Source of the DNA: Deltaproteobacteria bacterium
GTDB lineage: Bacteria; Myxococcota_A; JAADFL01
Length of the DNA stretch: 64,000 nt
Direction of reading: 5' to 3'
Assembly: GCA_013152945.1 (NCBI GenBank)
Contig: JAADFL010000120.1
Coordinates: forward strand, 1 to 64,000
The notes under the pieces were generated by a model, which saw only the letters and a program-made list of their open reading frames with translations, ran no database searches and was not told the origin of the DNA. Positions within the stretch are counted from its first letter, which is position 1. Each line of letters starts with the position of its first letter. Position numbers and translations under genes: made by a program. Below, one piece after another: positions 4,637 to 19,136 of this stretch.

Positions 4637-6013
4637 ATGAAAAGATGCCCCCGTTTACTGAAGGCATTGTTGTTATTGTCGATAACGATACCATTTACAT
4701 CGACTGTTGCAGGGCAGGATAAAGGCGGAGAACAGCCTACATTGGCAATTCTCGGAATAAAGGCCCTAGGTGTAGACAAATCAACCCAACGTATCCTGGT
4801 CAGACAACTAAATGCAGAAATAGGAAAGCTGGGAAAATTTCGTGTGGTGCCGTACAGGGAATATCGTTCCAAGCTGGAGATGACAAACGAGAGGGTCTTG
4901 GCTGTTTGCGGCGTCAAAGTCGCCTGTTACGTAAACGCCGGTCGAATGATGGGTGTGAACAAACTGGTAATCGGCATCATCAGCCGTCTCGGGAAATCGA
5001 GGACCATCAACCTCAAGCTTATAGATATAGGGGACGGGGTTCTTGAGAATGATGTTTCCGAGACTGTAATCGGCAAATCCGAAAAGTTGATCACTGCTAT
5101 TACCCAACTGGCGAGAACTCTGATAGAGTTTGTTGACGAGCTGAAGATCAGCATAGAAAACGTGAATGACGCAGTCGTTACCATTGATGGCAAGGAAGTC
5201 GGCAAAGGCGCCGATGTAATGGTTAAAAATACGCGGGTCGGCAAGCACTCGCTTCAAGTCACAAGGCCAGGGTACAGTGCTCATACCCAATTCTTTTCCA
5301 TCTCCTTTGGAGACAGGAAAAAAATAACCGTGGCCCTCAAACCCGTGGACGGTTTCTTGTCCATAGTTTCAAATGCACCGGATGCAACGATTTTGGTGGA
5401 TGGCAACAAAATGGGCACTGCTCCGATGAAGGAGTTGATAGTTTCTCCCGGAAGGCACACAATCAGACTGGAACACAGGTATTTCACCGCCTCTGAAAAA
5501 GTAGTCGATATCAAGGCCGGAACCCATCAAAGACTGACCTTCAATCTCAAGAAATTAAAGGGCAGCCTGGAAGTGACCAGCGTTCCTGACGGCGCATCCG
5601 TAACCATTAAAGGTGAAGGACTGGGGGAAACGCCGCTGAACAAAGAGATCGAGGCGGGGCGATATAAGATCGGACTTGCCAAGGATGGTTTTGAACCACA
5701 GGAAAAAGAGATCGAGGTCCTCCCGGAAGGTGTCAACAGGTTTGAATTCAAGCTTACTCCCCTGGGTACCGCAAAACAGGGGGAAGAAGAAATAAACGCC
5801 AGGCCGGAAATACCTGAAAAGGCTATGCCCGAGGCGCCAAAAGAGCCTGGGAAACAGCCTTCCTTGAAAACGGCGTGGTACGAGAAATGGTGGGTTTGGA
5901 CAGCGGCGGCTGCAACAGTAGCCGTCGTTGCGGTGGCGGTGGCAGTACCCCTTTCAATGCAAGAGGGTGGAACCAACCTGCCGTCGTTCGACACCAAGGT
6001 CAAGTTGCCTTGA
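4637..6013 (+). CDS. Exported PEGA-domain protein with C-terminal membrane anchor
   Basis: 458 residues. A signal peptide (about residues 1-25) precedes a domain of roughly 120 residues starting LAILGIKALGVDK, which resembles the TolB/CsgG-like N-terminal modules found in myxobacterial exported proteins. Three tandem PEGA-type beta repeats follow (for example NAPDATILVDGNKMGTAP and SVPDGASVTIKGEGLGETP), then a Glu/Pro-rich linker and a hydrophobic helix WWVWTAAAATVAVVAV near the C terminus. PEGA domains are taken to be surface-polysaccharide or cell-envelope binding. ATG at 4637 has an AGGAGG site upstream. It is followed after 35 bases by the large Big_5 lipoprotein, probably in one operon. 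Confidence 0.85.
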   Translation: MKRCPRLLKALLLLSITIPFTSTVAGQDKGGEQPTLAILGIKALGVDKSTQRILVRQLNAEIGKLGKFRVVPYREYRSKLEMTNERVLAVCGVKVACYVNAGRMMGVNKLVIGIISRLGKSRTINLKLIDIGDGVLENDVSETVIGKSEKLITAITQLARTLIEFVDELKISIENVNDAVVTIDGKEVGKGADVMVKNTRVGKHSLQVTRPGYSAHTQFFSISFGDRKKITVALKPVDGFLSIVSNAPDATILVDGNKMGTAPMKELIVSPGRHTIRLEHRYFTASEKVVDIKAGTHQRLTFNLKKLKGSLEVTSVPDGASVTIKGEGLGETPLNKEIEAGRYKIGLAKDGFEPQEKEIEVLPEGVNRFEFKLTPLGTAKQGEEEINARPEIPEKAMPEAPKEPGKQPSLKTAWYEKWWVWTAAAATVAVVAVAVAVPLSMQEGGTNLPSFDTKVKLP

Positions 6014-6048
6014 TTTACTTGAAATCAGATAGTTCCAAGAGGTGTGAC

Positions 6049-9000
6049 ATGAAATATCATGCAATACTCGTTGTTACATTGTCGGCATTCTCTCTCGCAG
6101 GTCCCATAACAGGTTGCAGTAGTGAAAAAAAAGAAACCGCGATTATGCTGAACGTCAAGGCCAAGATGGCGGTTCCTTCCGAACTTGACCTGGTTGAATT
6201 GGAAGTCTACGACGGCCGTACAGGAGATTTGCTGGGATCGCAACAAAGGACCCCAAAATCGTCGGAAGCCACCAACGACTATAGGCGTATTTGGAGTGTT
6301 GCAATAGTGGCCGGTTCGCCTGAAAAGTATCCCGAGGGAGTGGATATCTTTGTAAAAGGAAGCCATGGCGGACAAGAGGTTTCTTCTGCAGGAGCGAGAA
6401 AGACATTCCTAATCGGAGGAATCGTTTACCAAACCATAAACCTTGTTGCAGGCAACTCGGCACCGCATATAGTTTCCACCACGCCTAAACCCGGTGAGAC
6501 AGGAGTAGACCTCATGGTCGTCCCTACCGCTGTTTTCAACGCACCAATGGCCCAGGGGGGCAGCGGCATAGCCGAAGCATTCGTCCTGGAGGATGACAAG
6601 GGGTCTGTAGTGCAGGGCAAGGTCAGCCTCTCACAAGACGGCCAGGACCTGGCATTCAAACCGGATAAACCGCTTGAACGAAACACAAAATATCACGCTA
6701 CGATCAGGGCCGGCAACCTGGACGGCCGGCCGTATTTGGTGCTTGCCAAAGATGGGAAAACCGGCTTGGCTTACTCCTATACATGGAGCTTCGACACCGG
6801 GGATACACTGGCGGTCGTCAGCACCACTCCTGCTGACGGTCAACAAGGCGTTCCCACGAACGAGGATGTTACAATTGAATTCGATCGGGACTTGGATTCA
6901 GGCTCGATTAATCAAGACACGATAAAGGTTGTAGCCGGTCAGACCGGTGTGAGTGGTTCCGTTGCCTTGCAGGGCACACGAAAGCTTGTGTTTACTCCTG
7001 AATCCGGCCTGGTGGAAAATGCCACACATATAGTCACGGTTTCATCATCAATAAAAGCCAAGGACAAAAGCACGTTGAAGGATGATTACGTGTTTTCATT
7101 CACTACCAAGGGAGAGGCTCCGAAGATTGCCGGAACCAACCCAGAGGATGGAGACAAGAATGTATCACCGAGCACAAGCATAACAGTCGAATTCACCGAA
7201 CCCATGGACAAGGTGTCAGTCCAGGATGCCCTGAGCGTAAACGAGGTCGGTGTCGGTGAGGTCCAAGGTGATATTACCTACAAGGAAGACCCTTTCACCA
7301 TGGAGTTCAGGCCCAAACAGCCTTTGAACGAGGGCTCGCTGGTACAGGTTACCATAAGCAAGGCAGCAAAAGACCTCTCCGGATTGCCCTTGGCAAAAGA
7401 TTATACCTTCTCGTTCACAGTTGGTACAGGGCCTGCAATCATTTCCACCAAACCCGGACCGGATGAATATGATGTGCCTCTGGACACTGTTATCAAGGCC
7501 GCTTTTGACCGGGATATGAATGGAGATACCATCAAGGATACCAGCTTCCAGGTTACCTGTTCGGATAAGCCGGTAGGCGGCTTGGTAACATATTTGCCCC
7601 AAACCAGGGAAGCTTCTTTCACACCCGGGGAAGACCTGCCGGAAAATATAGAGTGCACGGCTCTCCTGACCACCGCCGTTCAAGATTCAATGGGAATCCC
7701 TTTACTTGCCGACTATTCATGGTCTTTCCACACCAGGATGATTCCTCCCATGGTAATCGAAACCGACCCCCCGAACGGAAGCATGGATGTTCCTCTGTCC
7801 ACCAGGTCTATTACAGTCAAGTTCAGCGAGAAGCTGGACAAGAGTTCGGTTACCAAATCGGCGATAAGAGTTACCGATCATGGAATGTCCGAATCAGCAA
7901 CAGCCTCTTTACAGGGCTCGGGTGATGCAGTGACGTTGACTTTCACCAAGGATCTTGCTCCAGGTCGAACATACTTCATTGAGGTGAGTGATGAAATCAA
8001 GGATATGCAAGGGGTTCCCCTGGCCACACCTTATATCGGAATTTTTTCCACTGTTGCCAAGCCGGATATACTCTATTTTTCACCCACCCCGTTTACCTCG
8101 AACGTTCCCTACAATAAATCAATCGAGGTGGGCTTTGCGAGCCGAATGGACAAGAATTCGTTCCAATTGACCAAGTCACCGGATAGTCCAAAGAGCGTAA
8201 CAGTTTTGAAAGGTGATGGAACATTGGTGGATGTTTCGATGAACTATTATTCTTCACCGAGAAATTTACACATAGTTATGCCGGGTTCCGGTACCATGGA
8301 CCGAAAACAAAGGTATACATTTCTCCTCGACGGCAGGTTGATTAGTGATGAAAACGGGGAAAGATCCGATATAGTCCATTCGTTCACCTTTCTAGTGGGA
8401 GATCAAAAGGATGACAATGCGCCGCGTCTGCTCGGAAGCGAGCCGAAAAACAATGACACGCAGGTCCCGTTGAGTAAAACCATGTTCCTGTTGTTTTCAG
8501 AACCAATCGAGCCCATAACCGCTACTGCACTGAATATTGCACTGCGAAAGCAGGGAGAAACAAGCCAACTGGCACGTACCATCCGATATGTAGGAAACAA
8601 TGCAGTGATGATTGTACCGAAGTCAACACTGGAACCCGGCACCACCTATCATATCACAGTTGGGAAGGGTGTCCGGGACTTGAGCGGAAATCAACTTGAA
8701 AACGCTGCCGACATAAGCTTCAAGACCATTGAGTCCGATCCGACTCCTCCAAACCTTGCCGGAACCTATCCTCCTCCCGGAAGCACTGATTTACCTTCCA
8801 ATTCGAGCGTAGTGCTTTTCTTCGACAAACCAGTGGTAAAAACTTCAGTGCGAATTTCCGCGGAAGCGGGAGAAACCAAAATCACGGGCAGTGTCAACAC
8901 TGCTTACTATAATATGATGGTGGTATTCACTCCAGACAGTGATTGGCCTCCAGGCAAGCAGGTGACGCTGTTCGTCGAACCTGGAATCAGGGATGTGGAT

Positions 9001-10605
9001 GGCAACCAATCGACTGACAGGATTACGGCCACGTTTTTCACTTCAAATGGTACGAAAGACACGGTCGCACCGCTCATTTCCATGAGCACGCCGAAGAATG
9101 ATGACAGGGATATCCCTCCAGGCACATCCATTTCCCTTGTATTCAATAAAGTCCTGGATTTCACTACCCTGCATCTCTTCGACAAGTTCGACATAACTAT
9201 CAGAAAAGAAAGAACCGGCACGAAAATACCGTGCTATGCCTCTTTTGATTTCGATACGAACAAGTTGGAAATAGTTCCCCAAATTCTCCTGGAAGGAGGA
9301 GAGAAGTATATTGTCGAGTTACCAAGCACGGTCAAAGACTTGGCAGGCAATTTGATTACAGTGGGAGATGGAAAAAACCGGATTGCTTTCACTGTCGACG
9401 ACCAAAAACCCCATGTGATTGAAACCGTGCCTGGAGATATGCAGGACATGGGGCCTGCTGACCCAATACAGGCCAGATTCGATGAAGACATGAAAAGTCA
9501 TTCCCTGAACCTTTTGAACTTCTTTATTTGGAAAGACGGTGACGACATGTCGAAACTGATTCCGGGTGCTGTAGGTTATTCGCATGACACCATGTTGGCG
9601 GTACTTCAGCCTGCAATTCCTCTCGATCCCGGCAATTACAACATAATCCTCAAGAATTCAGTAACAGACCTGGCAGGGAATGCCATAACCGCCAATACAG
9701 CTCTGGGTTACGGGTGGAGTGTTACAGTCAAGAGCGGTGGGTTGTGGGTAACCGACATCACTCCGTCCGCAGGATCGGTTCTGGGACCGGATGACATGGA
9801 CCAGAGCATAAAGGTACGGTTCAACAAGGACTTGAACACCACAACCATTCAAAACAACTTCAAAGTAATAAACGCCAACTCAGTCAAGGTTCCAGGTACC
9901 ACAACTTACAGTGACAGGGATTATTCCATAGTATTCATCCCTGATTCGGGGTGGGAATACGAACAGACATATAGGGTGTCCATCGGCACCGGCCTAGAGG
10001 CTTCAGACGGGGACAAGCTGGATGTTTCCTTTAATTCATCGTTCAAGACAGTAAAGATATTGTTCCAGGATGACATGGAGGGTGACACGAACGATTGGAG
10101 TCAATCCGGCAGGCGTACGGATCTGAATACCTGGAAGATAAAAGAAGATGACCTTGGAGGAGGAAACGGTGATAATAACAACGTATGGGCTGTCGAGCCT
10201 AATACCCTGGGAGGAAACGATTATATCAGGCCCTGCCTTCCGAGTGGAGCGCCGGACGAGAGCATATCGCTGTACTCTCCTTCTTTCCAGGTGCCTCTGG
10301 AAATCAATACCGTGTTCCTGCGTTTCGATCACAAGTTTGAGATAAACCAAGTCGACTCGGCAGAGGTGCAGGCGATCAAGAAAGGAGGGACACAGATTCC
10401 AATAACATTGGTACAACCTTTCAATGGAAAAAGTAACGGTTATACGAATGTCGAAGTGCAGGTGGACAACGTGGGAGGAGTTTCCGGCTCTGATTTTGAG
10501 CTTTCTTTAAGGTTCAAGTTCAACATAGACGGACAAAGAACGAGTTCATGTGATCCGACAGGATTTGGATGGCGCGTGGACAATGTAATGGTGTACGGGT
10601 ACTAG
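6049..10605 (+). CDS. Giant lipoprotein with eleven Big_5 (SbsA Ig-like) repeats
   Basis: 1,518 residues. A lipoprotein signal ends in ITGC (Cys23). After a short N-terminal domain come eleven units of about 110 residues, each opening with a form of 'P.(I/V)..T.P..G...VP' and 'F...(M/L)D', the hallmark of bacterial Ig-like domain 5. The C terminus (from LFQDDMEGDTNDWS, roughly the last 180 residues) looks like a jelly-roll carbohydrate-binding or MAM-like module. Such proteins are extended cell-surface rods. ATG at 6049 has AGAGG upstream. Its position behind the PEGA protein suggests both belong to the outer surface. No enzymatic motif is visible. Confidence 0.85.
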   Translation: MKYHAILVVTLSAFSLAGPITGCSSEKKETAIMLNVKAKMAVPSELDLVELEVYDGRTGDLLGSQQRTPKSSEATNDYRRIWSVAIVAGSPEKYPEGVDIFVKGSHGGQEVSSAGARKTFLIGGIVYQTINLVAGNSAPHIVSTTPKPGETGVDLMVVPTAVFNAPMAQGGSGIAEAFVLEDDKGSVVQGKVSLSQDGQDLAFKPDKPLERNTKYHATIRAGNLDGRPYLVLAKDGKTGLAYSYTWSFDTGDTLAVVSTTPADGQQGVPTNEDVTIEFDRDLDSGSINQDTIKVVAGQTGVSGSVALQGTRKLVFTPESGLVENATHIVTVSSSIKAKDKSTLKDDYVFSFTTKGEAPKIAGTNPEDGDKNVSPSTSITVEFTEPMDKVSVQDALSVNEVGVGEVQGDITYKEDPFTMEFRPKQPLNEGSLVQVTISKAAKDLSGLPLAKDYTFSFTVGTGPAIISTKPGPDEYDVPLDTVIKAAFDRDMNGDTIKDTSFQVTCSDKPVGGLVTYLPQTREASFTPGEDLPENIECTALLTTAVQDSMGIPLLADYSWSFHTRMIPPMVIETDPPNGSMDVPLSTRSITVKFSEKLDKSSVTKSAIRVTDHGMSESATASLQGSGDAVTLTFTKDLAPGRTYFIEVSDEIKDMQGVPLATPYIGIFSTVAKPDILYFSPTPFTSNVPYNKSIEVGFASRMDKNSFQLTKSPDSPKSVTVLKGDGTLVDVSMNYYSSPRNLHIVMPGSGTMDRKQRYTFLLDGRLISDENGERSDIVHSFTFLVGDQKDDNAPRLLGSEPKNNDTQVPLSKTMFLLFSEPIEPITATALNIALRKQGETSQLARTIRYVGNNAVMIVPKSTLEPGTTYHITVGKGVRDLSGNQLENAADISFKTIESDPTPPNLAGTYPPPGSTDLPSNSSVVLFFDKPVVKTSVRISAEAGETKITGSVNTAYYNMMVVFTPDSDWPPGKQVTLFVEPGIRDVDGNQSTDRITATFFTSNGTKDTVAPLISMSTPKNDDRDIPPGTSISLVFNKVLDFTTLHLFDKFDITIRKERTGTKIPCYASFDFDTNKLEIVPQILLEGGEKYIVELPSTVKDLAGNLITVGDGKNRIAFTVDDQKPHVIETVPGDMQDMGPADPIQARFDEDMKSHSLNLLNFFIWKDGDDMSKLIPGAVGYSHDTMLAVLQPAIPLDPGNYNIILKNSVTDLAGNAITANTALGYGWSVTVKSGGLWVTDITPSAGSVLGPDDMDQSIKVRFNKDLNTTTIQNNFKVINANSVKVPGTTTYSDRDYSIVFIPDSGWEYEQTYRVSIGTGLEASDGDKLDVSFNSSFKTVKILFQDDMEGDTNDWSQSGRRTDLNTWKIKEDDLGGGNGDNNNVWAVEPNTLGGNDYIRPCLPSGAPDESISLYSPSFQVPLEINTVFLRFDHKFEINQVDSAEVQAIKKGGTQIPITLVQPFNGKSNGYTNVEVQVDNVGGVSGSDFELSLRFKFNIDGQRTSSCDPTGFGWRVDNVMVYGY

Positions 10606-10845: not shown

Positions 10846-11355
10846 TTATTTAAGCAGAAATGTTCCCTGTGCCAGCACGTCCGCTATCCTGCGTTTCTTG
10901 TGTACCCTGACAACCCTCATCAGAATCTTCTGGCCTTGCTCAAAATCATCGGTGTCCAAAACCACCTTATCCACTACCTTACGGGTCGAGGGCTTTGCAT
11001 CTATTTGCAATATGGTCTGTGGCTTCTCATTGCCTGGATCTTTCGTGACATCAATAAAATAGAGCTGTAACGAACGAACCTTGGCCCTGCCGTTGAGCAA
11101 TGCATGAAAATAAATCGTCCACTCTTCATCCTTGCTCATCTTGAACTCTGTCTTGTTGTGCTTCTCAAAGTACTTGAACCGGGCTTTCCGGCTCTTGAAA
11201 CTCTTGGCAACCGGCTTGTCGGAAAACATGATGGTGCCTGTTTCTCCGAGTCTGGGCCCCTTGTTTTCCTTTTGTGCCTTTTTTGCCTGGCAAGGGACTG
11301 ATAAAAGGAGAAATGCTCCCAGAACCAACAGTGGATTTCTAACTACTTGTTTCAT
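10846..11355 (-). CDS. Exported hypothetical protein
   Basis: 169 residues with a clear signal peptide (residues 1-24, ending VPCQA) and a basic mature part with a mixed beta pattern. I do not recognise a domain. It ends about 240 bases from the convergent Big_5 lipoprotein gene, and no hairpin with a T tract is visible between them. A strong GGGAGG site lies just before the ATG, and that site is present twice (see the repeat at 11360-11398). It lies downstream of the GH84 gene on the same strand after a 111-base gap. Confidence 0.75.
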   Translation of the reverse strand: MKQVVRNPLLVLGAFLLLSVPCQAKKAQKENKGPRLGETGTIMFSDKPVAKSFKSRKARFKYFEKHNKTEFKMSKDEEWTIYFHALLNGRAKVRSLQLYFIDVTKDPGNEKPQTILQIDAKPSTRKVVDKVVLDTDDFEQGQKILMRVVRVHKKRRIADVLAQGTFLLK

Positions 11356-11359
11356 TTTA

Positions 11360-11398
11360 TGTCCTCCCGGACTCTTTTCTTTGTCCTCCCGGACTCTT
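11360..11398 (-). repeat. Tandem duplication containing the ribosome binding site
   Basis: A 17-base unit (on the minus strand AAGAGTCCGGGAGGACA) occurs at 11360-11376 and again at 11382-11398, a period of 22 bases. Each copy carries GGGAGG; the proximal one is well placed for the ATG at 11355. Confidence 0.85.
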
Positions 11399-11466
11399 TG
11401 TACTTTAAAAACCTAGTCCTGCACTATATTACATGTCAAGCAGGTGCCGCATTTTTTGTAAATTTG

Positions 11467-14010
11467 TCATTTTTGCCTCCTTGCCACAATGATCCGGGAA
11501 ATCAACAATGCTGCCAAAATAAAAGCTCCTGCCAAAAGCACCGGCATTATGAAATCCTTCCTGCCTGATGCCTTGACTTCACCGGGTAAAATATCGATGG
11601 TTCGGAAAGCGTAATCGACCAGTTGTCCGCACTTGACCACCAACGCCATTCTGAATTCACCGGTACGAACAGGTGTCCATCGAACGACCCGATCTCTCCC
11701 GGGTTTTGCTTTGGGAGGACCCAAGAAATGCAACTTGCAATCATCCACATTTGAATCTGTTTCCATTCGGATATTCAGTCGCCGACCTGCAATGGAATAT
11801 GCAGGTAGTTTCAGTCGGACCCGCAAGTACGGCTCACCACCTTTATCTTTGGGCCTTGGTGAATTCTCCCTGGCGCCTGAATCATGCGCCTGCTTGACAA
11901 GGCGCAGCAAGAATTCATGACCAACGTGCCAGGAGCTGTTTTCTATAGCTTTCAATTTATTATCGATATTTTTTAATTTCGCATCTCCATCCGGGTTAAG
12001 CAAATAAGCGATAAGCCCGGCTCCCAAACGTGCCACATCTGATACGATAATTGCCGCCGGCTCCAGATCGTCTTCCATATCTGTGGAGAGATTCGAATTG
12101 TATATGCATGTTCCGGATCTCCAAGCTGTTGCAAACATCTCCATCAGCTTGAATCCTTGTCTGGATGCATCTTGTTGCCTTTTTTCATCCAATGAACGTA
12201 AAAACACGCTCGTCAACCTGGATATTTCAGATGAATCCGGAGAGTTCGTGGTTACCCGTTCGCTTCCTGTAAAAAAGGATGCGAGATGAGCCAGGCATTT
12301 TCTTTCAGGCCCGCCAAGTTCGAGTTGTACAGCCCGGTTGAAAACTGCCTGTGGCTCATACTCCTCAGGATCGAATAAATATTCCGAGTACGCCCGAAGT
12401 GGAATCCTGGATGCAGCCGCCTGGATCATGGGATTTACGAGAAAACCTGAAACAATGTTAAACAGGTTCTTATCCCTGCCCGTAATAGCCCCCAGATACA
12501 AATTCCCTTTTTTGCCGACATCGTTCACCGGGTAGTTGTCCCAAATTATCACTCTCCTGCCGCCGATGAGTTTACGAAGCCAGGCAATATCATCTACCCG
12601 AATCTCCCGTGAAAAAACATTTGGCCCGGTCCAGGCAACCGGCACATCGACAGGAATTTTGGCAAGGGCCCTCAAGTAGTCTTTTTCTTTCTGTTCAAGG
12701 GATGAAGGAGTACCGGAATAGACCGTTGGAACAAAAAAGAACAAAGAACCAGGGCCTGCCCTGTCTGTAATAACGCCTTTCATGTAACGGACCAGCCTGG
12801 CATGTGCGGTTCCAAGAGTTTCATCCGGCTTCTTTGGTATGTCATCCAGCAGCAGGCCGAAATTCTTGTAGCCGATGTCGGCCATAACATCTATTTTGTA
12901 CTTCAGCAGTTCGATGTCTCTTTTTGAGTCCGGATCCAGGGTCAACCCTGGAGAAATCGTATAGGCTACCCTGATGCCGAGTCTGGAACCTGTCGAGAGA
13001 ATCTCGGCAAAGCGCTCCTTTTCCTTCAAGGAAAGCGTTGCTGTCCAGTCTTGCCTGTGCCGGGGATCGTCTTTCGGAGCATATGCATAGAAGTTGAATC
13101 CCATCCCCGCCATTGCACTAAGCAAGGCCAGCCGATGTAACCTCGGCCATGGTCTCCCATAGAAGCCTTCTACTACACCTCTTATGGGAAAAGCCGGGGT
13201 CAGACGCGGCAGGGCACGCTGAACCAGCCTTGGACCGCATTCTATCTTTTTCCCGTCAAATCCTACTGCAACAACTGCAAGTTCATAACCCGTAGGCTTA
13301 CATGCGATTGGAGGTTTCAAAACTACATGATTGGTTCTGGGAATCAACAAGAGCGATGCCGCTGACGGGGTAAAACCCGAATCCCTGGACCTGTGTAATT
13401 CCATGTGGTGGACCCTGGAAAAGTCCGGTTTCGGCCAATCCAAGAGTATCGAACCGTCACCCAGATTCTTGCTCGAAATGTTTATCGGCCTCGGCGGACC
13501 GCTTCCGTGCCCGAAAACCTTTGCCTCAAGTAAATGAACATCCTTGCCGGGATTCCTGGTCGCTATCTCTATGTATCCAACCCTGGGTCCGGCAAGTTCT
13601 ATTTGCATTTTATCTTTACCCTTGGCCCTGGCCAGCAAAGCGAGATTCCGTGGATCCATTCCGGCGGAAATACTGCATCCATGTGCAGGCGGTTGTTTCC
13701 AGACAAGCTCGATACGGTCCGGGAAAAAACCCATCGGCGTAAAATTGGTAAAATCGAATATTATCGCCTGCCTGCCCTTTTCAGGCACAGCCCACCCAGT
13801 GGAAAGATCCTGGTCCCGAACAGCAGGCGGACCATCTTTTTCATACGAGCGCACCAGGCCCAATGTATCCGCGCCCATTATCCCCGAGACCTTGATTCTA
13901 CAGAACAGCGCCAGGTTTAATCCTTCCTGGTGGGCCGAAGAAGAAAAAGGCCAAAGGGCCAATGCTATCCACAAGACATGTCTGACCCGGAAAATCTTAT
14001 TGTCTGCCAA
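11467..14010 (-). CDS. GH84 beta-N-acetylglucosaminidase, membrane-anchored
   Basis: 847 residues, exported by an N-terminal signal (cleavage near SSSA). Residues about 30-170 look like a discoidin-type beta-sandwich and 171-265 like an Fn3-like module. The catalytic domain starts at RGVVEGFYGRPW (277-288), continues with AYAPKDDP, and has the adjacent catalytic aspartates in LLLDDIP (Asp389-Asp390), which is the GH84 signature for substrate-assisted cleavage of beta-linked GlcNAc. A further GPNVFS motif lines the site. The last 30 residues form a hydrophobic helix with a basic tail, so the enzyme is probably membrane-tethered and faces the periplasm or outside. It starts 2 bases after the kinase stop codon. 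Confidence 0.88.
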   Translation of the reverse strand: MADNKIFRVRHVLWIALALWPFSSSAHQEGLNLALFCRIKVSGIMGADTLGLVRSYEKDGPPAVRDQDLSTGWAVPEKGRQAIIFDFTNFTPMGFFPDRIELVWKQPPAHGCSISAGMDPRNLALLARAKGKDKMQIELAGPRVGYIEIATRNPGKDVHLLEAKVFGHGSGPPRPINISSKNLGDGSILLDWPKPDFSRVHHMELHRSRDSGFTPSAASLLLIPRTNHVVLKPPIACKPTGYELAVVAVGFDGKKIECGPRLVQRALPRLTPAFPIRGVVEGFYGRPWPRLHRLALLSAMAGMGFNFYAYAPKDDPRHRQDWTATLSLKEKERFAEILSTGSRLGIRVAYTISPGLTLDPDSKRDIELLKYKIDVMADIGYKNFGLLLDDIPKKPDETLGTAHARLVRYMKGVITDRAGPGSLFFFVPTVYSGTPSSLEQKEKDYLRALAKIPVDVPVAWTGPNVFSREIRVDDIAWLRKLIGGRRVIIWDNYPVNDVGKKGNLYLGAITGRDKNLFNIVSGFLVNPMIQAAASRIPLRAYSEYLFDPEEYEPQAVFNRAVQLELGGPERKCLAHLASFFTGSERVTTNSPDSSEISRLTSVFLRSLDEKRQQDASRQGFKLMEMFATAWRSGTCIYNSNLSTDMEDDLEPAAIIVSDVARLGAGLIAYLLNPDGDAKLKNIDNKLKAIENSSWHVGHEFLLRLVKQAHDSGARENSPRPKDKGGEPYLRVRLKLPAYSIAGRRLNIRMETDSNVDDCKLHFLGPPKAKPGRDRVVRWTPVRTGEFRMALVVKCGQLVDYAFRTIDILPGEVKASGRKDFIMPVLLAGAFILAALLISRIIVARRQK

Positions 14011-14012
14011 TC

Positions 14013-16226
14013 CTACTCCGGGTTTAAATCCGGCTCGGCACAGTTTTTCAGAAGTTGCCTTACCTCTTTTGCGTCCTTTGCCTGGGGTTCTATTCGCAGA
14101 TAGTTACGAAACTCTCTTGCCGCGTTTTCTTTGAGACCCCGCTTCAACAAGGCAATTGCCAGGTCCCGGCGGGCAGGGGCAAAGTATTTTTCCACCCAAA
14201 TCACCTTTTTCAGGCCGGAAATAGCCTCATCGTACTTGCCGGAGGATATGTACCTCCTGGCAATCTTGTATAGCCTAATAGCATTCTTGTCCTCAAGCGG
14301 CCGGTTGTAACTTACTTTGCTGGAGTGCTCAACATGTGGCAGTTCTTTCATCAATGCTGCAAGAGGGCCCGCCCCGCCGGATTTATTTTTCCCATTATTA
14401 TTTTCTTTACCTGCTTCTTTTTCATTGAGACCGGCTCTTGCAGCGGCCTGATCCGGCTCTCTCTTATTATCAATGCTCCGGGTCTTCCCGACTTCGACCA
14501 ATTGGGCATTTTTTTTATCATTTCCATTGATGCGTGGTACATTATCGCTGTTCATTTGAGCACTGCTCGTCTTCCTTTCCTTAAGCCGCCTTGTCCCTTC
14601 AGCCCTTTTCCCTTGTCCGGATAATGCCGGCAAAGCAGGCTCCATACCGCGCCTGGAATTACCTCGCACTGATTTCCCGGCATTCAAGCCGATCTTTTCC
14701 GCAATACGTGGATAATAGTGGTAACCGCCGACACCAAGTCCGGCAAGCACCAAGACGAACACAATAAAGAAAATCACACCGCCTTTACCCTTGGCCTGTT
14801 TCGGCGCATTGACGTGCCGTTCGACCGAAGCCTGCCTTGCCGGAAGAATCCTGGGCTCGCGGGCAAGACGAAGGGCAGGTCCCGGTCCGGGCAGAAGCGC
14901 CCCCGGCTCATTCTCATTCATGGCTGCAGGGCGTGGTTTTTGAGCATGCGTATCAGGAGGCTTTACCCTGGCTTGGGGAGAAACAGGCGGCGCAGTTCGT
15001 TCGATTTGCAGATCCAGCGGCTCTACTTCAATGCCCAAATCGAGTTCGGCTGCTGCCGGAGGCACGGGCATGGCTGATTCCATGCCGATCGGGGAAATCG
15101 AATCCGCAGTGTTTTCATTGGACGGCATATCGAAAAGCTCTTTCCTAAGTTTAAGCATTTCTCCGCTTACCGCCTCGCCCTTTCCCATTACAATAGGTGG
15201 TACAGACATGCCGGAATTTGAAACTTCCTCCTCGATCTCTTCCATCCTTTTCGCCATTTTCGGAAGTTTCAAACTCGTCGAGTAATCTTCAAGTTTCTCG
15301 AAGAGAGCCTCTGCATTCTGGTACCTGTCTCCCCTCCGCTTTTGTAGACACTTCAAGCATATCCTTTCCATCGTCTTCGGTATATTGAGATCCGGCCTTA
15401 GTCTCCTGGGTGGTGTCGGGCGCTCCTGAAGGTGTCTCGTTACTATATCTATTGGATTCGGAGCCTCGAAGGGCAATTTTCCCGTCAGCATCTGGTATAT
15501 AATTACTCCGAGTGAATATATATCCGACCGGGAATCCAGCTTTTCTCCGCGGGCCTGTTCCGGACTCATGTATTCAGGGGTGCCGCAAATCATTCCCGTG
15601 TCCGTCAACCTCTCTTGCTGCCTCGGTGCGCCCGGAGCGGTTATTTGTGCAAGGCCGAAATCAAGGACCTTCACAAAATCCCTTCCGTCCCTGGTCCTTT
15701 CCACCATTATATTTTCCGGTTTCAAGTCTCTGTGAATTACGCCCTGCGTATGAGCTTCGACCAGGGCGCTGGTGACCTGGCTTGCTATATCCACTGTTCG
15801 TTCGATTGGAAAAGGAAAATCCCTTGCCATGAGAACAGCCAGGTCCGTGCCTCTCAGGTATTCCATGACCAGGAACAGTTCGCCTGACTCGGCCCTGCCG
15901 AATTCGATGATCTGAATACTATTCGGATGGTGCAACCTGCTTGCAGCCAGGGCCTCTCTCTCGAACCGCCTGGCATACACCTCGCCATGAGCGAATTCTT
16001 TTTTCAGGATCTTGATGGCCACCGGTTTCTTCAGAGAAAGCTGTTCAGCAAGATAGACCTTCCCCATACCGCCTTCGCCGAGGAGTTCCTTGACTGCAAA
16101 ATTCTTCTGTATAATTGTTCCCACATGCGTGCCGGTCCCCCTGCCGGGGTTAAGCTCGGCTCCGCATCTCGGACAAAAAGCCAAGTTGTCTTCAACTTGG
16201 TTGTTGCACTTCGGGCATTTAAGCAT
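14013..16226 (-). CDS. Transmembrane Ser/Thr protein kinase with zinc ribbon
   Basis: 737 residues. An N-terminal zinc ribbon (CPKC ... CPRC, Cys4, 7, 18, 21) precedes a complete Hanks-type kinase: glycine loop LLGEGGMGKV, ATP-anchoring Lys72, HRDLKPEN at 165-172, DFG at 189-191, and activation segment ending GTPEYMSPEQ. A long Pro-rich linker leads to one membrane helix (about 483-502) and an extracytoplasmic segment whose last 90 residues look like two TPR-type helical repeats. All catalytic residues are intact. ATG at 16226 is preferred because GGGGAG lies six bases upstream; an ATG at 16244 lacks one. It is the first gene of a pair with the GH84 hydrolase. Confidence 0.9.
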   Translation of the reverse strand: MLKCPKCNNQVEDNLAFCPRCGAELNPGRGTGTHVGTIIQKNFAVKELLGEGGMGKVYLAEQLSLKKPVAIKILKKEFAHGEVYARRFEREALAASRLHHPNSIQIIEFGRAESGELFLVMEYLRGTDLAVLMARDFPFPIERTVDIASQVTSALVEAHTQGVIHRDLKPENIMVERTRDGRDFVKVLDFGLAQITAPGAPRQQERLTDTGMICGTPEYMSPEQARGEKLDSRSDIYSLGVIIYQMLTGKLPFEAPNPIDIVTRHLQERPTPPRRLRPDLNIPKTMERICLKCLQKRRGDRYQNAEALFEKLEDYSTSLKLPKMAKRMEEIEEEVSNSGMSVPPIVMGKGEAVSGEMLKLRKELFDMPSNENTADSISPIGMESAMPVPPAAAELDLGIEVEPLDLQIERTAPPVSPQARVKPPDTHAQKPRPAAMNENEPGALLPGPGPALRLAREPRILPARQASVERHVNAPKQAKGKGGVIFFIVFVLVLAGLGVGGYHYYPRIAEKIGLNAGKSVRGNSRRGMEPALPALSGQGKRAEGTRRLKERKTSSAQMNSDNVPRINGNDKKNAQLVEVGKTRSIDNKREPDQAAARAGLNEKEAGKENNNGKNKSGGAGPLAALMKELPHVEHSSKVSYNRPLEDKNAIRLYKIARRYISSGKYDEAISGLKKVIWVEKYFAPARRDLAIALLKRGLKENAAREFRNYLRIEPQAKDAKEVRQLLKNCAEPDLNPE

Positions 16227-16375
16227 CCTCTTGCTCCCCGGCATTACTCTGATTTGATATTTATAGCATAAACCACCTGATACGGCGAAATAGATTTTTT
16301 CCGGATGTCTTCGTATCGTGATAATTCGAGAAAGTTGGTGGGAATTTCACGAAACAGCATGGTTCGATCGTTTTT

Positions 16376-17305
16376 TTATCCCAATGCGGACTTGTTAATA
16401 TGGCGGCTATAAAACCTTTGGGCCAAAACCTTGACCTTTTCTATGTCTATTCCCGTCTCGAACCCATGTTTCTCCGCAATCTCGACCAAGTCTTCGGTCG
16501 GAAGGTTGCCAGGCGCCCCGGTCACACAACCCCCTGCACCGGCCAGGGAACCGTCCAGGATCCGTATTCCCGCATCAAGTGCTTCCTCTGCATTTGCCAA
16601 CCCGGTTTCCGGATCCGCGTGATGTCCATGGTAACCGAGGCGCATGAAAATATGGTTGCCTAGTTCGCGGGCCAGGCCGGTAAACAAGTCAAAGGTCTTT
16701 CCCGGCATGGCAACGCCCTGCAAGTCAGACAGGGTAACGGTTTTTGCCCCCAGCTCCAAAAAATAGGTTATCAATTCCATCAGGCTTTCAAACCCGGCCT
16801 CAATAATCTTTTGTCCACCGGCCGGTTTGTAACCAAATGCTGCTGAAATATAGGCACAGAACCGAACATCATGTTTTTTCGCCATATCGGCCGCCTTGAT
16901 ATATTCCTGCTTTGTTTGCTTGATGGTCATTCCCAGGTTTGCAAGATTGTGTTCCTGAACCGCGGAAAGGAAGAACCCTGCATGGTGCCCGAGTTCGTGC
17001 AATTTCAATGACAGGAAAAGCTGCATGCCTCGAGTATTCGGAACCAACGTGACTATCTCCGCACCTGGTTGCCGTCCGATCATGTAGGCGACACCCCGCA
17101 GCCTGTCTCCATGCATCGAAGGCACGACTTTTGATGACACACAGGAAAGCACTTCCAGCCTCCTGAAGCCGAGGTCAATAAGATTCCTGGCTGTCTGGGC
17201 CCTATAGGCATCCGTGAAAACATTGAGATTTCTTTTCGCCACGTTTTGCCCGTACTCGCGTAGGGTCACGTCTGAAATGGTAACTTTACGCTTGTCAACT
17301 GCCAT
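16376..17305 (-). CDS. HMG-CoA lyase-like / HMGL-family TIM-barrel enzyme
   Basis: About 309 residues of the HMGL-like family, which includes HMG-CoA lyase, homocitrate and isopropylmalate synthases. It begins TISDVTLREYGQN, holding the metal-binding Asp and the catalytic Arg. The C-terminal block GSLAGAGGCVTGAPGNLPTED matches the HMG-CoA lyase Cys loop, and a metal-ligand GYHGHHAD is present. The likely reaction is aldol cleavage or condensation of an acyl-CoA; the substrate is unclear. ATG at 17305 has an AAGGGG site; a GTG at 17377 would extend it by 24 residues and overlap the permease stop. It is the third gene of an operon with an ABC-2 exporter. Confidence 0.75.
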   Translation of the reverse strand: MAVDKRKVTISDVTLREYGQNVAKRNLNVFTDAYRAQTARNLIDLGFRRLEVLSCVSSKVVPSMHGDRLRGVAYMIGRQPGAEIVTLVPNTRGMQLFLSLKLHELGHHAGFFLSAVQEHNLANLGMTIKQTKQEYIKAADMAKKHDVRFCAYISAAFGYKPAGGQKIIEAGFESLMELITYFLELGAKTVTLSDLQGVAMPGKTFDLFTGLARELGNHIFMRLGYHGHHADPETGLANAEEALDAGIRILDGSLAGAGGCVTGAPGNLPTEDLVEIAEKHGFETGIDIEKVKVLAQRFYSRHINKSALG

Positions 17306-17364
17306 CGGCCGCCCCTTTGCCTTTTTAATAACATATCCGTTGTCGAAGAGAAAGGCGCCGAGGC

Positions 17365-18102
17365 TCACATAATCCACTTTCTCTTGATGTTGTGGAGGCT
17401 TCCTGCAAACAGGAGTATACAGAAACCGGCAAGTACGACCAGGTCCAAGTACATGGGCATTATGTTGGTGGATTGAACAGATCCATGCAGCACGTCAACG
17501 CCGTAGGTCAGCGGGAGGGCATAGGACAAGGGGCGGAGGAAAACGGGCAGCTTTGCTATCGGGAAGAAAAGGCCGCAAAGAAATACCATGGGAAACCTGA
17601 AAAAATTCGAAAATGTCTGGGCTTCGAAAACTTCGCTTACAGCCACCGCGATAAAAAGACCTAGAAAGGCCGAGGCAATCGCAATCAACAAGACAGCCAT
17701 AAAAAAGGATCCCCAGGCTATTGATGACAGGTCTGTGAGGAACGACGCCATGATCACCGGTACAAATGCATTGGCCAACCCGAAGATAATCGCGCCGCCT
17801 GTCTTGGCCAGCATGAGCAATTCAAGAGAAATCGGAGACAGCAACAATCTCTCGAAAGACCTGTTCTTCTTTTCAAAGGTTACTGTCACCGCCAACATCG
17901 ACGTGGTGCCGAATAAAATCGATAGGGCCACAACCCCGGGAAGTAAGCCCAGGACATCCTCGAGGCCCTGGCCCGACTTGATGAAGAACATGCCGGTCCA
18001 TGCGAGGGGGAATAAGAGTCCCCAACTGATGTTGGGAGGTTTCAAGTAGTAGGCATGCACATCTTTCGCCAGTATATTAAAAAAGGCGGTCCACTGGCTC
18101 AT
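17365..18102 (-). CDS. ABC-2 type transporter permease
   Basis: 245 residues with about six membrane helices and the ABC-2 pattern: an amphipathic N terminus (VHAYYLKPPNI), a charged 'coupling' loop FEKKNRSFERLLLSPIS, and the late FPMVFLCGLFFPIAKLP and ALPLTYGVDVLHG motifs. It is the membrane half of a DrrB/NodJ-like exporter for a lipid, polyketide-like molecule or drug. Its ATG overlaps the stop of the ATPase gene by 4 bp, so the two are co-translated. Confidence 0.88.
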   Translation of the reverse strand: MSQWTAFFNILAKDVHAYYLKPPNISWGLLFPLAWTGMFFIKSGQGLEDVLGLLPGVVALSILFGTTSMLAVTVTFEKKNRSFERLLLSPISLELLMLAKTGGAIIFGLANAFVPVIMASFLTDLSSIAWGSFFMAVLLIAIASAFLGLFIAVAVSEVFEAQTFSNFFRFPMVFLCGLFFPIAKLPVFLRPLSYALPLTYGVDVLHGSVQSTNIMPMYLDLVVLAGFCILLFAGSLHNIKRKWIM

Positions 18103-19136
18103 GTGCCGCCTCCTGCCTTTTTCTTTTTACCATGCCTCTTTGTCTCGGTTACCTTAAGCAATTCCTTGGCCTCGATACCGGTGATTCGCACGAAAACATC
18201 CTCGAGGGAAGAACGTAGCAGCCTGGCCTCGATAACTTGAATGCCGTTTTCTTCGAGAAACCTGACCAAGCGGCCCACCGGTATTGGCTCCCCGGACTTC
18301 ACCCTTACATGTTCCTCTCCTGCTTCCTTGTCCCGGGAAAATGACCGGCCGGCATTCCGGCCGGTATTGTTGAAGACAAGATCCTTGAACTCTTTGCCCA
18401 GCAAATCGACAGCCTGCTTTTCTCCCCTGGTGCATATTATCTCGGCCAGGTGCTCTTCCTGCATCGGCTGTAACAGGTTTTCCATGGTATCGATCCGCAC
18501 TATGCGTCCTGACACGATGAACGCGATACGTTCGCACAGTCGCTCTGCTTCCTCGATGTAATGCGTGGTCAGAAACACGGTCTTGCCGGTCTCGTGCAGT
18601 CTGGCGATGAGCATCCTTATCTGCCTTGCACTGGCGACATCTATTCCGGTGGTAGGTTCATCGAGGAACAGGATTTCAGGGTCGTGTATAATACCTGCCG
18701 CAATGGTCAGCTTGCGTTTCATTCCCTTGGAATATGCGCCGAACTTGCGAAAAGCCGCCTCTTTAAGACCGAATTGCTCCAGCAATTCCCAAGCCTTTGC
18801 AGTGCGCTCGGCCTTTTTCATTCCGTACAATGCCGCGCAAAAACAAAGGTTTTCAAGACCGGAAAGCTCGGGATACAAGTTGCTCTCATCCGGCACCACT
18901 CCAATGCTCTGCTTGATCGTTTTCAGATTTTTCAGATAGTCCTTTCCATGTACCCGGATGCTTCCCTGGTCCGGCCTTGCAAGACCGGTCAACATGTTTA
19001 TCGTAGTTGTCTTTCCAGCCCCGTTTGGACCTAGGAAACCGAACATCTCCCCTTTTTTGACAACAAATGATATCTTGTCCACTGCCTTAACGTCTTCAAA
19101 GCTCTTGGACAGGTTCCGGACCTCAACCGCGTTCAT
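18099..19136 (-). CDS. ABC transporter ATP-binding protein (DrrA/NatA-like)
   Basis: 345 residues. Walker A is GPNGAGKTT, the signature is YSKGMKRKL, Walker B is ILFLDEPTTG, and the H-loop is TTHYIEEA. The C-terminal 100 residues form the extra regulatory domain typical of the DrrA/NatA group; the signature spelling is normal in that group. It energises the permease encoded immediately downstream. The gene is divergent from the lipoprotein at 19367 across a 230-base gap that holds a short inverted repeat (19246-19261) but no clear promoter. Confidence 0.9.
   Translation of the reverse strand: MNAVEVRNLSKSFEDVKAVDKISFVVKKGEMFGFLGPNGAGKTTTINMLTGLARPDQGSIRVHGKDYLKNLKTIKQSIGVVPDESNLYPELSGLENLCFCAALYGMKKAERTAKAWELLEQFGLKEAAFRKFGAYSKGMKRKLTIAAGIIHDPEILFLDEPTTGIDVASARQIRMLIARLHETGKTVFLTTHYIEEAERLCERIAFIVSGRIVRIDTMENLLQPMQEEHLAEIICTRGEKQAVDLLGKEFKDLVFNNTGRNAGRSFSRDKEAGEEHVRVKSGEPIPVGRLVRFLEENGIQVIEARLLRSSLEDVFVRITGIEAKELLKVTETKRHGKKKKAGGGT

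Follow-up and report, generated by a model that had tools for sequence, protein, structure and literature searches.

The window, a stretch of 64,000 nucleotides, carries a gene for a Hanks-type Ser/Thr protein kinase and, directly downstream on the same strand, a gene for a predicted GH84 beta-N-acetylglucosaminidase (Table 1). The TAG stop codon of the kinase gene and the TTG start codon of the GH84 gene are separated by 2 bases, and a GGAG motif is located 5 bases before the TTG. Promoter and terminator scans stayed near shuffled levels, with 9 hits versus 8.0 in shuffled sequence (sd 3.2) and 17 versus 11.2 (sd 4.1), respectively, and neither scan was drawn upon. In the surroundings of the pair, inspection by eye revealed tgtcctcccggactctt twice in tandem (11360-11400), directly before the small gene that lies past the GH84 gene, and a protein of 1576 aa with 11 Big_5 Ig-like stretches (Pfam) is encoded at 5875-10605.

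Table 1 Features of the kinase-GH84 locus and its context (positions refer to the window)
Feature	Position	Strand	Basis and details
Hanks-type Ser/Thr protein kinase gene	14013..16244	(-)	743 aa, one membrane helix, C-terminal part predicted periplasmic
Zinc ribbon, kinase N-terminus, aa 9-31	16152..16220	(-)	Pfam Zn_Ribbon_1 E 2e-6, 27.8 bits vs cut-off 25
Kinase catalytic domain, aa 50-314	15303..16097	(-)	Pfam Pkinase E 3e-51; PF00069 same coordinates
Kinase transmembrane helix, aa 488-507	14724..14783	(-)	Sequence and hydropathy
TPR-like kinase tail, aa 663-732	14049..14258	(-)	Pfam TPR_9 E 7.7e-7, 29.5 bits vs cut-off 35
Predicted GH84 beta-N-acetylglucosaminidase gene	11467..14010	(-)	847 aa, TTG start, 2 bases past kinase stop
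Signal-peptide-like N-terminus, about aa 1-27	13930..14010	(-)	Sequence; hydrophobicity 1.86, simple scale
F5/8-type-C-like region, about aa 36-170	13501..13905	(-)	By comparison with close relative L122
FN3-like region, about aa 172-265	13216..13497	(-)	By alignment with L122; L122 fn3 E 0.012, under cut-off
GH84 catalytic barrel, aa 277-566	12313..13182	(-)	PF07555 9e-74; Foldseek best match TtOGA 5diy 6.2e-31
Catalytic Asp389-Asp390	12841..12846	(-)	Invariant in GH84 alignments of 15 and 32 sequences; aligned with human OGA DD
Post-catalytic helical region, aa 569-715	11866..12306	(-)	AlphaFold2 helices, mostly high pLDDT; 582-593 low
Predicted C-terminal membrane helix, about aa 821-843, basic tail	11482..11550	(-)	Sequence; hydropathy 2.74
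HMGL-like gene (context)	16376..17377	(-)	Pfam HMGL-like 6.4e-21; upstream, ends 131 bp before kinase
ABC-2 permease and ABC ATPase genes (context)	17365..19136	(-)	Pfam; upstream, same strand
Small protein, signal-like start (context)	10846..11355	(-)	111 bp past GH84; no Pfam match at E 0.01

Domains and predicted topology of the kinase and the GH84 enzyme

The kinase has a complete catalytic domain in which the GxGxxG, AIK, HRD, DFG and SPEQ motifs were found by inspection, which places it among the Hanks-type Ser/Thr kinases. Its best NCBIfam model is NF033483 (E 1.3e-93), which matches aa 42-334 alone and reaches 314.9 bits against a cut-off of 450, and no PASTA family was present among its Pfam matches at E 0.01; for these two reasons, an identity as a PASTA kinase (PknB/Stk1) was rejected. 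When the tail beyond the membrane helix was searched on its own, the TPR_9 match improved to E 1.8e-7 and was still under the gathering score. With no more than 14 candidates scored in each genome, relatives of the tail turned up in 41 of 188 genomes, a count that includes the genome of the window; the best of these matches (E 3e-8) covers about 80 residues of the TPR part, and a few weaker ones are longer.

The downstream protein belongs to GH84, its NAGidase domain (aa 277-566, Pfam E 6.7e-73) scoring 246 bits against a cut-off of 25, and it is the single GH84 match of its genome in a search with the PF07555 profile. The adjacent aspartates correspond to the catalytic pair D174/D175 of human O-GlcNAcase, and the same letters as in the human enzyme are found at the other pocket positions, which we take to be Gly67, Lys98, Tyr219, Asn280, Asp285 and Asn313 in the human numbering and roles. 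By domain and catalytic motifs, the protein is thus a predicted exo-beta-N-acetylglucosaminidase. An AlphaFold2 model (mean pLDDT 65.6) is of mostly high confidence for aa 270-715 and poor in the remainder, and a Foldseek search with this model gave the Thermobaculum terrenum OGA as best match; the other matches listed are also GH84 proteins, mainly from Clostridium perfringens and Bacteroides, at identities of 19-27% among the listed matches.

Because model confidence is low towards both ends, the names given to the N- and C-terminal domains rest on L122, a protein of an uncultured delta proteobacterium with 33% identity to the window GH84 over aa 36-569. The N-terminal region of the window protein has no Pfam match of its own, and in L122 the corresponding part matches F5_F8_type_C (2.6e-13).

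The GH84 protein is probably exported, a call that comes from hydropathy alone, its N-terminal value lying barely above the threshold of 1.8. At the other end, the hydrophobic stretch is followed by a tail of RRQK, and the AlphaFold2 model has a helix at 821-846 with low confidence. Basic residues mark the cytoplasmic end of a membrane helix under the positive-inside rule, and therefore the stretch and its tail fit a periplasmic enzyme with a cytoplasmic C-terminal end. The helix could instead be a surface-sorting signal; MYXO-CTERM and GlyGly-CTERM are families of such C-terminal signals. None of the sorting-signal NCBIfam models matched the window GH84 at E up to 1, such models being short and easily missed, and no Cys or Gly-Gly motif was seen by eye before the helix. 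A C-terminal hydrophobic stretch was present in 4 of the 128 other GH84 frames that are complete at their 3' end (6 frames cut at a contig end were left out), and two of the four, L068 and L100, were accepted as having a similar end. The stretches of L098 and L099 were judged not to be membrane helices.

The original prediction, made for positions 11467-16226, had described a complete membrane kinase with an extracytoplasmic TPR-like tail, followed 2 bases later by a GH84 enzyme with both catalytic aspartates and a C-terminal membrane anchor. The pair, its spacing, the completeness of the kinase, the aspartates and, as judged from the sequence, the anchor were all confirmed. Two details were revised: the kinase gene starts with the ATG at 16244, position 16226 being an in-frame ATG at codon 7 of the same open reading frame, and the tail beyond the membrane helix stands as such, its TPR part being short and weakly scored because the TPR_9 match stays below its cut-off. 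The description is now extended by two features that it had lacked, the zinc ribbon of the kinase and, at the N-terminus of the GH84 enzyme, the F5/8-type-C-like and FN3-like part.

Distribution of the pair and settings of GH84 relatives

GH84 proteins were found in 48 of 377 sampled genomes, the window's own included, with 55 matches besides that of the window. DNA was fetched around all 55 of these other loci from the phylum, often with short flanks, and the 80 top-ranked named GH84 loci from a scan were considered in addition. One of the 55 is a fragment without a strong GH84 match; for loci that have one, the upstream flank measures at least 2 kb in 43 of 54 cases from the phylum and in 71 of 80 named cases, and less than 2 kb in 11 of the 54. 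Three of the 80 named loci (L138, L139 and L171) are probably the same records as phylum loci (G323, G312 and G219).

With a profile built from kinases of the window genome, the window kinase included, a kinase was detected in the fetched DNA of none of the 55 phylum loci and in 2 of the 80 named loci, both from Saccharopolyspora. In both, another open reading frame, presumably encoding GroEL, lies between the kinase and the GH84 gene. As a control, the same profile recovered 4 kinase loci of the window genome that were outside the building set; in three other genomes, 60 regions yielded 57 kinase genes with it. A conserved kinase-GH84 unit was therefore rejected across the 55 phylum and 80 named loci, and since no examined GH84 relative directly adjoins a kinase gene, the pair seems to be a local arrangement and not a conserved new system. 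Within this sample, the outcome that the original prediction had named as its refutation, the two genes being unlinked in relatives, was thus obtained. Among the titles listed in literature searches, none describes a GH84-kinase pair. The 56 other genomes drawn as relatives are no closer than the same phylum; because of this distance and of the 11 loci with short upstream flanks, the pair may yet be conserved in close relatives outside the sample.

These counts also bear on the shared cell-envelope function that the original prediction had suggested for the two genes. Both proteins are intact, and the membrane helices, the signal-like start and the gap of 2 bases make co-translation and a common envelope location likely; conservation of the pair, in contrast, finds no support in the sampled loci. 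The sensing of peptidoglycan or surface glycans that the original prediction had put forward is a possible role.

In a quick maximum-likelihood tree of catalytic domains (131 rows, leaving out the three named loci judged duplicates and domains spanning fewer than 200 positions), the window GH84 grouped with 17 GH84 proteins of the phylum and L122 in a clade of 19 rows with an SH-aLRT value of 98. At least 2 kb of upstream DNA was available for 13 of the 18 clade relatives. This grouping, together with the lack of a kinase at the loci of the relatives, suggests that the GH84 gene is native to the phylum and that its kinase neighbour is lineage-particular; as far as sampled, the pairing looks particular to this lineage.

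The best-scoring matches of the relative-genome and named-locus searches were L068 (genome G001) and L122, respectively. L068 (1509-6062) is a single open frame of 1518 aa in which GH84 is joined to GH2-type domains and which ends in a hydrophobic C-terminus. The GH84 gene of L122 overlaps its upstream neighbour at the latter's end. This neighbour has a start that looks exported and no Pfam match, and it weakly resembles an NCBIfam model for an oligosaccharide amylase (29.5 bits, the cut-off being 820.7). These settings hint, on thin evidence, at glycan breakdown rather than signalling. Among the neighbours of ten GH84 relatives, no common gene was recognized by eye with a simple gene caller.

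The gene content of the window genome, which is 94% complete, was also searched for related functions. GH3 gave three matches, GH20 gave none, and GT41 (PF13844) gave none at E 0.001, the control for the latter matching in 2 of 14 genomes. The GT41 result is relevant to a reading in which the hydrolase serves intracellular O-GlcNAc signalling, as proposed for Thermobaculum terrenum, whose TtOGA is the closest PDB entry to the catalytic domain of the window protein. Such a cycle is highly improbable here, because of the absence of a GT41 match and the export-like ends of the GH84 protein, a signal-like start and a C-terminal anchor, in contrast to TtOGA, which is cytoplasmic according to an excerpt of its description (PMC4683255). 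Bacterial O-GlcNAc cycling was accordingly dropped, the two ends, as read from sequence and hydropathy, speaking against a cytoplasmic hydrolase.

Exported partners of kinases in the window genome and in three others

The window genome contains 27 kinase matches on 26 genes, 2 of which run off a contig end. Tight pairs were defined by a same-strand gene starting at -30 to +60 bp, and genes were called exported or membrane-like by a simple hydropathy rule. In a pattern that was noticed by eye first and then counted on the same data, with a non-random background drawn from the surroundings of kinases and from 20 additional stretches, 9 of the 10 genes tightly downstream of kinases were exported or membrane-like, versus 46 of 183 background pairs (Fisher 6e-5). 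The excess was also seen versus pairs with an upstream gene encoding 1-2 membrane helices (22/57, 0.004) and versus those in which this upstream gene is long as well (11/28, 0.009), and it persisted at three thresholds (9, 8 and 7 of 10 versus 47, 40 and 33 of 184). Counted per gene it was weaker, at 9 of 26 versus 46 of 469 (p 0.0009), or versus 22 of 173 membrane genes (p 0.008). Upstream of the kinases of this genome there was no excess (2/7 versus 55/184).

Besides the pair described here, eight kinase genes have an exported-looking or membrane gene no more than 60 bp downstream (L206, L208, L211, L214, L215, L217, L224 and L226). Pfam matches of the partner proteins include PDZ, PsbP, ion channel, 5'-nucleotidase, purple acid phosphatase and ABC substrate-binding; the counted partner at L206 is a membrane protein that resembles ion channels, rather than a secreted protein.

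In three other genomes of the phylum, 20 regions each were taken, mostly the strongest of their 37, 44 and 82 kinase matches (a further genome, G050, with 95 matches, does not enter the count). Downstream genes were exported or membrane-like in 10 of 21 cases versus 42 of 142 (p 0.13), or versus 13 of 38 membrane controls (p 0.41). By genome, the downstream counts were 0/1 versus 5/28 in G038, 6/12 versus 22/69 in G011 and 4/8 versus 15/45 in G006, and the upstream counts 0/3 versus 4/26, 3/7 versus 25/78 and 5/5 versus 13/50, respectively (G006 regions L290-L309). G038, with 70% GC, is a weak replicate because few kinase genes were obtained, the simple gene caller having recovered 9 from 20 regions. 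The upstream excess in G006 argues against the downstream position being special. The kinases at L272, L280 and L309, which belong to two other genomes of the same phylum, each have a tightly spaced downstream gene for an exported protein with a start that appears TPR-like by eye.

The excess in the window genome hints at a link that goes beyond co-expression, and we treat the pattern as a lead and not as a result. For the locus itself, such a link would mean that the anchored GH84 enzyme binds or processes periplasmic GlcNAc glycans and signals to the kinase through its TPR-like tail, the two forming one glycan-sensing unit. The two-base coupling, the predicted membrane location of both proteins and the one-sided excess after kinases in the window genome are consistent with this arrangement, which we nevertheless consider unlikely: no other examined GH84 gene has a kinase directly beside it, the excess was seen before it was counted and is not significant in the three further genomes, in G006 it is the upstream side of kinases that is rich in exported-like genes, and the matches to the kinase tail are at TPR level within the 188 genomes. 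A broader version, in which transmembrane Ser/Thr kinases and co-translated, exported or membrane-bound periplasmic co-sensors would form modular receptor units in this lineage, the GH84 unit reporting GlcNAc glycans to the cytoplasm, is a long shot. Under that version the co-sensors would comprise GH84, an ABC-type binding protein, a PDZ lipoprotein, a 5'-nucleotidase, a purple-acid-phosphatase-like lipoprotein, a TPR protein and an ion channel.

At the opposite end, the two genes may be chance neighbours, the kinase being one of many and the envelope enzyme downstream of it functionally unrelated. With 26 kinase genes in the genome, a pair that was seen nowhere else, and 183 of 469 background genes that likewise have a tightly spaced downstream gene, chance proximity is a serious candidate, to which we give somewhat less than even odds since the stop/start spacing and the GGAG motif suggest translational coupling and exported genes are in excess after the kinases of this genome.

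Proposed role of the pair and comparison with known systems

We favor, with a probability of about 60%, a reading in which a periplasmic, membrane-anchored GH84 enzyme that trims GlcNAc is co-expressed with a transmembrane kinase in one lineage. The GH84 protein would be exported and anchored in the inner membrane, where it would remove terminal GlcNAc from periplasmic glycans or glycoproteins by a substrate-assisted mechanism involving Asp389 and Asp390. The two genes are probably co-transcribed, and kinase and hydrolase would be translated from the same message, with the catalytic half of the kinase in the cytoplasm and its TPR-like tail in the periplasm. With such a common message, the two would probably be synthesized jointly and reside in the same inner membrane. 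Co-expression would be the likeliest benefit of the pairing, and a direct partnership in which the kinase tail contacts the GH84 enzyme is possible. The estimates given for this reading and for the alternatives overlap and do not sum to one.

What the locus contributes is an anchored GH84 enzyme from a lineage that has been little sampled and is probably myxobacterial. Were the broader association of kinases with exported partners to hold, it would suggest a way in which bacterial Hanks kinases that lack obvious ligand domains receive their signals, and the kinase-GH84 pair would then offer a specific case to test, with an enzyme that can be assayed.

Among known systems, the window kinase shares with the bacterial PASTA kinases (PknB/Stk1) the Hanks kinase domain and its best model, and differs from them in its score under the NF033483 cut-off and in having a TPR-like tail in place of PASTA Pfam matches. 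The GH84 barrel with its Asp-Asp motif is common to the window enzyme and TtOGA (PDB 5diy), the best PDB match in both sequence and fold. T. terrenum possesses a GT41 OGT in addition to its cytoplasmic TtOGA, as stated in the excerpt of PMC4683255, whereas the window enzyme looks exported and anchored and its genome yielded no GT41 match. NagJ/CpOGA of Clostridium perfringens and BT_4395 of Bacteroides share with the window enzyme the barrel, the pocket letters and the fold of the modelled core; its N-terminal region, in comparison with theirs, falls in no Pfam family and aligns with the F5/8-C and FN3-like part of L122. BbhIV and BbhV of Bifidobacterium bifidum are GH84 enzymes of 1960 and 1139 aa, larger than the 847 aa of the window enzyme; BbhIV has been tied to mucin O-glycan breakdown, and the excerpt of their description (PMC10245121) mentions no kinase partner for either. 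Both carry C-terminal transmembrane regions, as does the window enzyme by prediction, and its anchor is therefore a design already known from B. bifidum, as reported in the same excerpt (PMC10245121).
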